The position numbers and the translations under genes are program-made. A stretch of 6,301 bases of DNA from an uncultured Lachnoanaerobaculum sp. (GTDB lineage Bacteria > Bacillota > Clostridia > Lachnospirales > Lachnospiraceae), in assembly GCA_938041725.1 (NCBI GenBank), contig CALISX010000306.1, forward strand, positions 1 to 6,301, written 5' to 3'. Positions 1 to 2,330 of this stretch are shown piece after piece; within the stretch, counting starts at the first letter, position 1, and the number at the start of each line of letters is the position of its first letter. A model generated the notes under the pieces. That model did no database searches and was not told where the DNA came from. It saw only the letters and a program-made list of their open reading frames with translations.

Positions 1-1
1 C

Positions 2-30
2 TTGATTAATAAAATTAATGGTGATATTAT
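2..30 (+). promoter_or_regulatory. Putative sigma-A-type promoter of pflBA
   Basis: A -35-like TTGATT (positions 2-7, 4 of 6 matches to TTGACA) is followed after exactly 17 bp by TATTAT (25-30, 5 of 6 matches to TATAAT). Transcription would start near 36-38, giving a leader of about 50 nt before the pflB start codon. The surroundings are very AT-rich, so a chance match is possible, and more promoters may lie left of the window. I saw no convincing FNR or Rex operator. Confidence 0.45.
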
Positions 31-43
31 CAGGACATAAGAG

Positions 44-61
44 AGTTAGTAAAGCCTAACT
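44..61 (+). other. Small dyad in the pflB leader
   Basis: AGTTAG (44-49) and CTAACT (56-61) form a perfect 6-bp inverted repeat around a 6-nt loop. It lies in the predicted 5' leader between the putative promoter and the AAAAGGAGG ribosome binding site (76-84). It could be a protein-binding site or a weak RNA hairpin. It is too short to act as a terminator and has no T-tract directly after it. Function is unknown. Confidence 0.25.
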
Positions 62-89
62 ACTTTATTTATTTTAAAAGGAGGTACTT

Positions 90-2330
90 ATGTGCTGGGA
101 TGGTTTTAAGGGAAGAAAATGGCGTGACGATATAGATGTACGTGATTTTATACAAAATAATTATACAATATACGATGGAGATGAAAGTTTTCTGTCAGGG
201 CCTACAGAGGCGACAAATAAACTCTGGGGAGAACTTTCAAAACTCCAAAAAGAAGAAAGAGCTAAGGGTGGAGTCCTTGATATGGAAACGGAAGTTGTGT
301 CCACTATTACGGCATACGGTCCCGGATATATAAATGAGGATATGAAGGATCTTGAAAAGGTTGTAGGACTTCAGACAGATAAGCCTTTGAAAAGAGCGTT
401 TATGCCTTTTGGCGGAATTAAGATGGCGGAGAAAGCGGCAAGTACTTACGGATATGAAACAAATAAAAAGTTCCATAAGATATTTACTGAGTATCACAGA
501 ACACATAATCAGGCGGTATTTGATGCCTACACTCCTGAAATGCATTCGGCAAGGCATAATAAGATAATTACGGGACTTCCGGATACATATGGCAGGGGAA
601 GGATTGTAGGAGACTATAGAAGGGTGGCTTTGTACGGCATTGACTTTTTAATAGAAAAAAAGCAGGAAGATTTATTAAACTGCGGAGACGGAACAATGCT
701 TGATAATATTATCCGTCAAAGAGAAGAATTGGCAATGCAAATTGATGCCTTAAAGCAGATGAAGGAAATGGCGGCCGCTTACGGATTTGATATTTCAAAG
801 CCTGCAACAAATGCTAAAGAGGCAGTACAATGGCTGTATTTCGGATATCTTGCAGCTATAAAAACACAAAACGGTGCAGCCATGAGTGTAGGAAGAATAT
901 CCACATTCTTTGATATTTATATTGAAAGAGATATGAAGGAGGGAAAACTTACAGAAAGTGAGGCACAGGAACTTATTGACCATCTTGTTATGAAGTTTAG
1001 AATGGTAAAGTTTGCAAGAATTCCTTCATACAATCAGCTGTTCTCAGGCGATCCGGTGTGGGCAACTTTGGAAATAGCGGGTCTTGGCATGGACGGAAGA
1101 TCAATGGTTACAAAGAGTGACTTCAGATTTTTACATACTCTTGAGAATATGGGACCTTCCCCTGAACCTAATCTTACAGTACTTTACTCAAGCAGACTTC
1201 CAAAAAGTTTTAAGGAGTATACATCTGCAATTTCAATCAGGACAAGTTCCGTACAATATGAAAATGATGATGTAATGCGTCCTGTATGGGGAGATGATTA
1301 CTCCATTTGCTGCTGCGTATCCGCCACCCAGACAGGAAAGGAAATGCAGTTCTTTGGTGCCAGAGCCAATCTTGCCAAATGCCTTTTGTATGCCATTAAC
1401 GGCGGTGTGGATGTAAAAACCAAGGAGCAGGTGGGACCGGCCTATGTCCCCATTACCTCTGAATACCTGGATTATGAGGAGGTGATGAAAAAATATGATC
1501 CCATGATGGATTGGCTGGCAGGGTTGTATGTGAATACCCTGAATTTAATCCACTATATGCATGATAAGTATTATTATGAGGCAGCAGAATTGGCTTTGAT
1601 TGATACAGATGTGCGCAGAACCTTTGCAACAGGTATTGCAGGATTTTCCCATGTGGTGGATTCCCTTTGTGCCATTAAGTATGCCAAGGTAAAAACCATC
1701 CGGGATGAAAATGGCCTTGTTATTGACTATGAGACCGAGGGAGACTTCCCCAGGTACGGAAATGACGACGACAGAGCAGATGATATTGCCTTATGGCTGT
1801 TAAAGACCTTCTTAACGAAGATTAAGAAAAGACATACCTATAGGAATTCCGAGGCCACCACATCCATCCTTACCATTACCTCCAATGTGGTATATGGCAA
1901 GGCCACAGGAAGCATGCCTGATGGAAGAAAGGCAGGGGAGCCTTTGTCTCCTGGTGCAAACCCCAGCTACGGAGCAGAAAAGAACGGCCTTCTGGCTTCC
2001 TTAAATTCCCTGGCAAAGCTTCCCTATGAGTATGCCTTGGACGGCATCTCCAACACCCAGACCATCAATCCCACAGCTTTGGGACATGGAGAAACAGAGC
2101 AAAAGACCAATCTGGTACAGGTGATGGACGGATATTTTGACCAGGGTGCCCATCATCTGAATGTGAATGTATTTGGTACAGAGAAGCTGGTTGATGCCAT
2201 GGAGCATCCGGAGAAGGAGGAGTATGCCAACTTCACCATCCGGGTTTCTGGATATGCTGTGAAATTTATTGATTTAACCAGGGAGCAGCAGCTGGATGTT
2301 ATTGCCAGAACCTGCCATGACAGACTGTAA
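90..2330 (+). CDS. pflB: Pyruvate formate-lyase (formate C-acetyltransferase)
   Basis: This 746-aa cytoplasmic glycyl-radical enzyme converts pyruvate and CoA to acetyl-CoA and formate in anaerobic fermentation. The length is close to the E. coli enzyme (about 760 aa). The catalytic cysteine pair is C408-C409 in the CCVS motif, equivalent to E. coli C418/C419; an additional Cys (407) precedes it. R425 in the QFFGARANLAK segment matches the substrate-binding Arg435. The radical-bearing glycine is G721 in RVSGYAVKF near the C-terminus. The start is ATG at 90, 5 bp after a strong AAAAGGAGG site (76-84). pflA follows, as expected for an operon. Oddity: codons before about 1300 are AT-rich (ATA for Ile, ACA/ACT/ACG but no ACC for Thr, CCT for Pro), while later codons favour ACC, CCC and ATC/ATT like the rest of the window, suggesting a mosaic gene. 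The reading frame is intact and no catalytic residue is lost, so activity is expected. Confidence 0.98.
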   Translation: MCWDGFKGRKWRDDIDVRDFIQNNYTIYDGDESFLSGPTEATNKLWGELSKLQKEERAKGGVLDMETEVVSTITAYGPGYINEDMKDLEKVVGLQTDKPLKRAFMPFGGIKMAEKAASTYGYETNKKFHKIFTEYHRTHNQAVFDAYTPEMHSARHNKIITGLPDTYGRGRIVGDYRRVALYGIDFLIEKKQEDLLNCGDGTMLDNIIRQREELAMQIDALKQMKEMAAAYGFDISKPATNAKEAVQWLYFGYLAAIKTQNGAAMSVGRISTFFDIYIERDMKEGKLTESEAQELIDHLVMKFRMVKFARIPSYNQLFSGDPVWATLEIAGLGMDGRSMVTKSDFRFLHTLENMGPSPEPNLTVLYSSRLPKSFKEYTSAISIRTSSVQYENDDVMRPVWGDDYSICCCVSATQTGKEMQFFGARANLAKCLLYAINGGVDVKTKEQVGPAYVPITSEYLDYEEVMKKYDPMMDWLAGLYVNTLNLIHYMHDKYYYEAAELALIDTDVRRTFATGIAGFSHVVDSLCAIKYAKVKTIRDENGLVIDYETEGDFPRYGNDDDRADDIALWLLKTFLTKIKKRHTYRNSEATTSILTITSNVVYGKATGSMPDGRKAGEPLSPGANPSYGAEKNGLLASLNSLAKLPYEYALDGISNTQTINPTALGHGETEQKTNLVQVMDGYFDQGAHHLNVNVFGTEKLVDAMEHPEKEEYANFTIRVSGYAVKFIDLTREQQLDVIARTCHDRL
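1285..1330 (+). other. Composition and codon-usage switch inside pflB (candidate recombination junction)
   Basis: Upstream of this interval pflB uses Thr ACA 16, ACT 6, ACG 3 and ACC 0 times; downstream it uses ACC 18, ACA 8 and ACG 1. Ile ATA occurs 10 times before (last at 1074-1076) and never after. Pro is CCC in 1 of 14 codons before and 6 of 11 after. All are hand counts in frame. The first ACC codon is at 1326-1328, next to the catalytic Cys codons (1311-1316). A crossover in this strongly conserved stretch would keep a functional protein. An assembly join is the alternative. Confidence 0.6.

Follow-up and report, generated by a model that had tools for sequence, protein, structure and literature searches.

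A hybrid pflB gene

The stretch analysed here (the window) is a 6,301-nucleotide contig from an uncultured Lachnoanaerobaculum sp., and it opens on the pyruvate formate-lyase gene pflB. An 89-base leader (positions 1–89, forward strand) precedes the coding sequence (CDS; 90–2330, forward strand), which encodes 746 residues at full length with its reading frame kept, and pflA, for the pyruvate formate-lyase activating enzyme, follows on the same strand (2425–3159; TIGR02493, 315.9 bits against a cutoff of 231.75). PflB matches TIGR01255 over its whole length (residues 3–746) and above the curated cutoff (1158.8 bits, cutoff 994.2). Residues 408–409, in a Cys loop formed by residues 407–409, align to the CC of 38la, and the translation contains the glycyl-radical motif RVSGYAV with Gly721, PF01228 (Gly_radical) being matched with 109.4 bits; we take the Cys pair and Gly721 to be the catalytic residues. 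In its full length, its scores and both motifs, the protein is like the PflB formate C-acetyltransferase that works with PflA, and its predicted function has nothing unusual about it. The gene itself is a hybrid: it has two parts with different kin and different codon use, the promoter region is of the same foreign (donor) type as the first part, and the switch from donor to resident type lies inside 1227–1328.

The original prediction, read from the letters of the window, had described pflB as a mosaic whose composition changes abruptly at about position 1320. Counting codons in frame, with a cut after codon 410, we recovered its figures: ACC is used for 0 of 25 Thr codons before the cut and 18 of 27 after it, ATA for 10 of 26 and then 0 of 17 Ile codons, and CCC for 1 of 14 and then 6 of 11 Pro codons. 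The contrast between 19 G+C of 60 at 121–180 and 30 of 60 at 1861–1920 was likewise reproduced, and the G+C content at third codon positions (GC3) rises from 0.33 to 0.52. If synonymous codon choice is allowed to change at one point, the best place is codon 411 (position 1323), with a log-likelihood ratio of 76.7; 200 sequences in which codons were shuffled among positions of the same amino acid gave a mean of 31.0 (sd 3.7, maximum 42.4). Codon use beyond the switch agrees with that of the six other genes in the window (mean log score per codon 0.195; those six score 0.03 to 0.13 when each is left out in turn), whereas that of the first 400 codons does not (–0.09), so that the claimed resemblance of the later part, and not the early part, to pflA and its neighbours is borne out. 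Among 96 distinct pflB genes including that of the window, the excess over shuffles is 47.5 in the window and 14.1 in the next highest gene, and the GC3 step is 0.19 and 0.10, respectively. A comparable step was found in 0 of the 95 other pflB genes and, in a separate check, in none of 80 relatives. The observation of hybrid codon use is thus confirmed as correct and well located. A GC3 step as a normal property of pflB is ruled out by the 95 genes that do not have it, and a fusion of two unrelated genes by the fact that the halves stand in register within one family.

The two halves of the protein also differ in their closest relatives. We searched residues 1–408 and 414–746 separately against proteins clustered at 90% identity, scoring the 7983 candidates that shared most words and listing the best 120 per half. 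Among those listed, the first part is closest to P0001 (94%) and P0002 (93%) and the second to P0004 and P0007 (100% each) and P0005 (99%), and no listed protein matches both halves above 93%. The window differs from P0004, which is encoded on a 37160-base contig, at 59 places in residues 1–379 and at one (residue 568) in residues 380–746; for P0007 the counts are 60 and one. At 40 diagnostic sites, where eight donor-type proteins agree with one another and differ from P0004, the window protein has, in its first part, the donor residue at 23, the P0004 residue at 3 and some other residue at 2, and in its second part the P0004 residue at 12 of 12. Over residues 3–379 and 414–746, 1 of the 58 differences between the window and P0004 falls in the second part, which under a single shared history has a probability of 5.7e-10 at a first- to second-part rate ratio of 1.66, or of 1.4e-7 at 2.29, the ratio seen between the donor-genus gene L118 and P0004. 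Against 196 other proteins the median ratio is 1.66 for P0004, and since this is near 1.51 (P0001) and 1.58 (L118), P0004 does not look mosaic itself, though this is not certain.

Separate trees of the halves, which the original prediction had proposed, were built from the window and 50 of 221 collected PflB proteins (51 rows), hand-picked above 700 residues and spread down the match lists. The first part groups with P0001 and P0002 (support 98/85) and the second with P0004, P0005 and P0007 (99/97). The prediction would have fallen had both halves given the same tree and close relatives shared the composition step; instead the kin differ and none of the 80 or of the 95 relatives has the step. 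The window, P0001, P0002, P0004, P0005 and P0007 form one clade in both trees (98/92 and 98/91), and the two source lineages therefore look like sisters. A formal topology test on 22 rows rejected a grouping of the second part with the donors (p 0.030) and did not reject a grouping of the first part with P0004 (p 0.154). The case for a mosaic therefore depends mainly on the divergence step and the site pattern, and less on first-part topology. Judged by these protein comparisons, pflB is a hybrid of two lineages, its segments having different nearest kin.

The donor-type leader and the position of the switch

The donor-type genus is represented by six genomes (G093 and G310–G314) of the same family as the genome carrying L001. 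Their PflB proteins have 746 residues, begin with MCW and are 92–93% identical to that of the window, and their pflB genes have a GC3 of 0.30–0.37 in both halves, like the first part of the window gene. In DNA, these genes (L118–L123) are 83–84% identical to the first part of the window gene (90–1226, residues 1–379) and 78–81% to the second (1329–2330, residues 414–746). Within the genus the first part is 84 to 98% identical, and the donor, itself unsampled, would therefore lie at the margin of the genus or slightly beyond it.

The leader aligns over its whole length to L118–L122, sharing 84 of 89 bases with L118 and L120, 83 with L119, 79 with L121 and 76 with L122; the alignment to L123 covers 19–89. 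Of 104 upstream regions compared, the 12 that match best are those of the six donor-genus genomes, each present twice. Together with the AT-rich, donor-type kin of the first part, this upholds the prediction that the promoter region and the first part are foreign. A promoter-like TTGATT-17-TATTAT, with TG before the second hexamer, lies at 2–30; it is a match to consensus only, and 8 such sites were found in 1–2450 where 6.1 are expected by chance. The leader further holds a hairpin, GTTAG-N6-CTAAC, at 45–60, which is kept in all six donor-genus genomes (a looser form of it before GGAGG was also hit 5 times in L001–L080, on both strands), and the ribosome-binding sequence AAAGGAGG. A structured leader was rejected as the cause of the composition: Rfam gave no match at its thresholds, and the fold of 30–190 is not unusual (z –1.13). 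A separate observation concerns the start of the coding sequence, where the first 31 codons are unusually conserved at silent sites in the donor genus (0.96 between the window and L118 versus 0.55 later, and 0.85 between L121 and L122 versus 0.61 later); in 3038 pairs of other genes the silent-site excess has a mean of 0.043 and an sd of 0.118. The conserved hairpin and these codons might act as a cis-regulatory element, or they might mark a short tract that recombined separately.

Because P0001 and P0004 do not differ over residues 380–413, the switch is bounded to 1227–1328. None of the six donor genes has the third bases that the window has at 1301, 1304, 1307, 1316, 1322, 1325 and 1328, which weakly suggests a switch before about 1300; the hint is a weak one, since the third bases at 1238 and 1250 are likewise missing from all six. 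The predicted junction at about 1320 thus holds as a codon-based estimate, the protein comparison giving the wider bounds and the silent sites leaning towards an earlier position. For shared DNA we compared the six donor-genus genes with a mid-GC set, namely the 25 of 89 distinct genes from neither the window nor the donor genus that have a GC3 of 0.42–0.62. In these 150 pairs the longest exact runs have a median of 23 and a maximum of 41 bases, and their commonest place is 1254–1298, within the switch interval and just before the Cys loop, which 30 of the 150 overlap. The right end of the tract falls where the protein does not vary and the DNA is often conserved as well; its left end is outside the window. 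Since the estimated switch falls just before the Cys loop, the cysteines (residues 407–409) and Gly721 probably share one parent, the resident.

Downstream, the window keeps its resident character. After pflA, whose codon use is resident (GC3 0.57), comes a methyltransferase dependent on S-adenosylmethionine (3193–4095, reverse strand; PF10672), part of the resident flank, whose closest protein is P0222 at 98%, the remaining 119 listed being at most 72% identical. Another relative of this enzyme, the 396-residue database protein P0223, shows in alignment a stretch repeated near its end, which is probably an assembly or annotation fault. The methyltransferase is followed by a lipoprotein-like gene with a chagasin-family peptidase inhibitor domain (4104–4691, reverse strand; PF09394, 64.6 bits) and, in the annotation of the window, by proC, an S4-domain gene and an HU-type gene.

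Origin of the join

We sought DNA that encodes the P0004-type protein. A scan of genome contigs with the window PflB gave at least 588 stretches encoding a relative, and among the best 80 kept the closest is 87% identical. With P0004 as query, viral contigs gave one locus, at 66%; the best plasmid match is 80%. Genomes of the family were drawn by the methyltransferase (299), by the second half with pflA (397), by 1330–4700 (369) and by the window PflB (145 relatives), plus single genera; these draws overlap, so that the numbers are not additive, and they cover the family in part. No P0004-type genome and no genome of the resident species was found in them, and the best DNA identity to the second half is 81% (G093). 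The exact 33 bases from 1293 on are present in 0 of 85 loci. Among the titles listed in literature searches none concerns a mosaic pflB in this family, which is not proof that none exists.

We favour a mis-joined assembly over a natural swap as the source of the hybrid, with a probability of roughly 58% judged from estimated base rates. The original prediction, which put recombination first and named a mis-join as its alternative, is right about the mosaic with its foreign first part and promoter region, and its alternative is in our judgement the somewhat likelier cause. The assembler would have attached reads of a co-occurring AT-rich relative, likely from the G093 genus or one sister to it, to resident DNA at the conserved stretch, that is, onto the resident second half of pflB and the pflA neighbourhood. 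This supposes that the two source genes occurred together in a sample, that they have in common an exact stretch at least as long as the assembler's word size, and that cells of the resident carry an intact gene of the P0004 type. No whole genome matching the window was found, which among other possibilities would suit a contig from a metagenome. P0006 also fits: it is a P0004-type first half, a 410-residue fragment on a 3678-base contig, and it breaks off at window residue 407, within the switch interval. P0003 (697 residues, 2512-base contig) offers a parallel, its first 345 residues being 99.4% identical to L122 and the sequence after residue 375 being 82% identical to a different, shorter pfl class (L107). 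Homologous recombination hardly explains a join to so distant a class, and P0003 is therefore probably a chimeric contig, in which assembly went wrong in pflB of this donor genus. Chimeric contigs between homologous genes are described in the SAT-Assembler paper (PMC4133164); the window gene is similar in that two homologous lineages are joined in register at a conserved stretch, the join being seen here by sequence comparison.

Several points weigh against this explanation. Coexisting recombinant and unaltered strains would give the same end of P0006, which therefore does not discriminate. The final word sizes of common assemblers are 55 or more, and the 41-base maximum exact match is below that; sister lineages may share more. 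P0004-type DNA was not found in the genomes searched, and its shared stretch was assessed by proxy pairs. Identical hybrids could hide inside the 90% clusters P0001 (57 members) or P0002 (955 members). The divergence ratios of P0004 to the donor types, 2.11 for P0001 and 2.29 for L118, exceed the median, which is why its uniformity is not certain. Finally, L121 shows that within-gene pflB mosaics do occur in the donor genus.

That last case supports recent homologous recombination. On this reading a relative of the G093 genus would have supplied a tract, with the promoter and first half of pflB, that took the place of the resident's own, the right crossover lying in the conserved stretch, at the Cys loop or ahead of it. 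The enzyme would have acquired a foreign promoter, while its glycyl-radical domain and pflA would remain those of the resident. We hold recombination as the cause to be possible but less likely than a mis-join. The evidence of lineage (kin, trees, site pattern and leader) fits it equally well, the reading frame is kept in a full-length protein, and modern assemblers finish with word sizes for which a 41-base match is short. Recombination and assembly error would both tend to occur at a long shared stretch. In L121, from genome G310, pflB is 95–100% identical to L119 and L120 in 100-base windows from about CDS position 1534 and mostly 78–94% identical before it, and this on a contig of at least 1.4 Mb, so that such events do happen. 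L121 resembles the window in gene, in donor-type genus and in an abrupt change of identity inside the coding sequence; it differs in its breakpoint (about 1623 in window coordinates), in staying within one genus, in its long contig and in a GC3 of 0.37 and 0.34 in its two halves, without the step of the window. Beyond the family, mosaic alleles between Campylobacter jejuni and C. coli, at about 15% divergence, were identified among 1738 alleles of seven housekeeping genes (PMC3139442). Like them, the window pflB is one gene with segments of two related lineages, and unlike those described there it is one record with one visible end and a larger divergence.

In DNA the second, resident part differs from the donor-genus genes by 19–22%, and recombination is rare over such a distance. 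Screening 4560 gene pairs turned up 12 in which one block exceeded 0.94 and another fell below 0.87; L121 is involved in three, and we consider the remaining nine too patchy to count as mosaics. The hybrid has been seen once, and the tract's left end is out of view. A natural swap across genera in its full extent, in which promoter, leader hairpin and the first 55% of pflB were replaced with the radical domain and the activase left resident, seems to us a little more doubtful again. We also considered an origin without any foreign lineage, in which a native gene has its first half under different codon selection or has been converted by a second pfl copy. A second copy in the resident genome is possible, and still this origin is very improbable: none of the 95 other pflB genes has such a step, the first part and the leader match one specific other genus, the six donor-genus genomes each have one match to the window PflB, and a second part holding 1 of 58 differences is not expected of one history at either ratio (5.7e-10 at 1.66, 1.4e-7 at 2.29).

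Significance

If the join is an assembly splice, the window is a clean example of a chimeric gene that passes annotation, being full length, in frame and above its family cutoff, and a change point in codon choice can flag such a record. If instead it is a natural swap, it would be a still-fresh case of regulatory capture crossing a genus boundary in a core fermentation enzyme. A core metabolic enzyme would then have been placed under the regulation of a neighbour and, taken together with L121, pflB would be a gene that is repeatedly cut and re-joined in this family.
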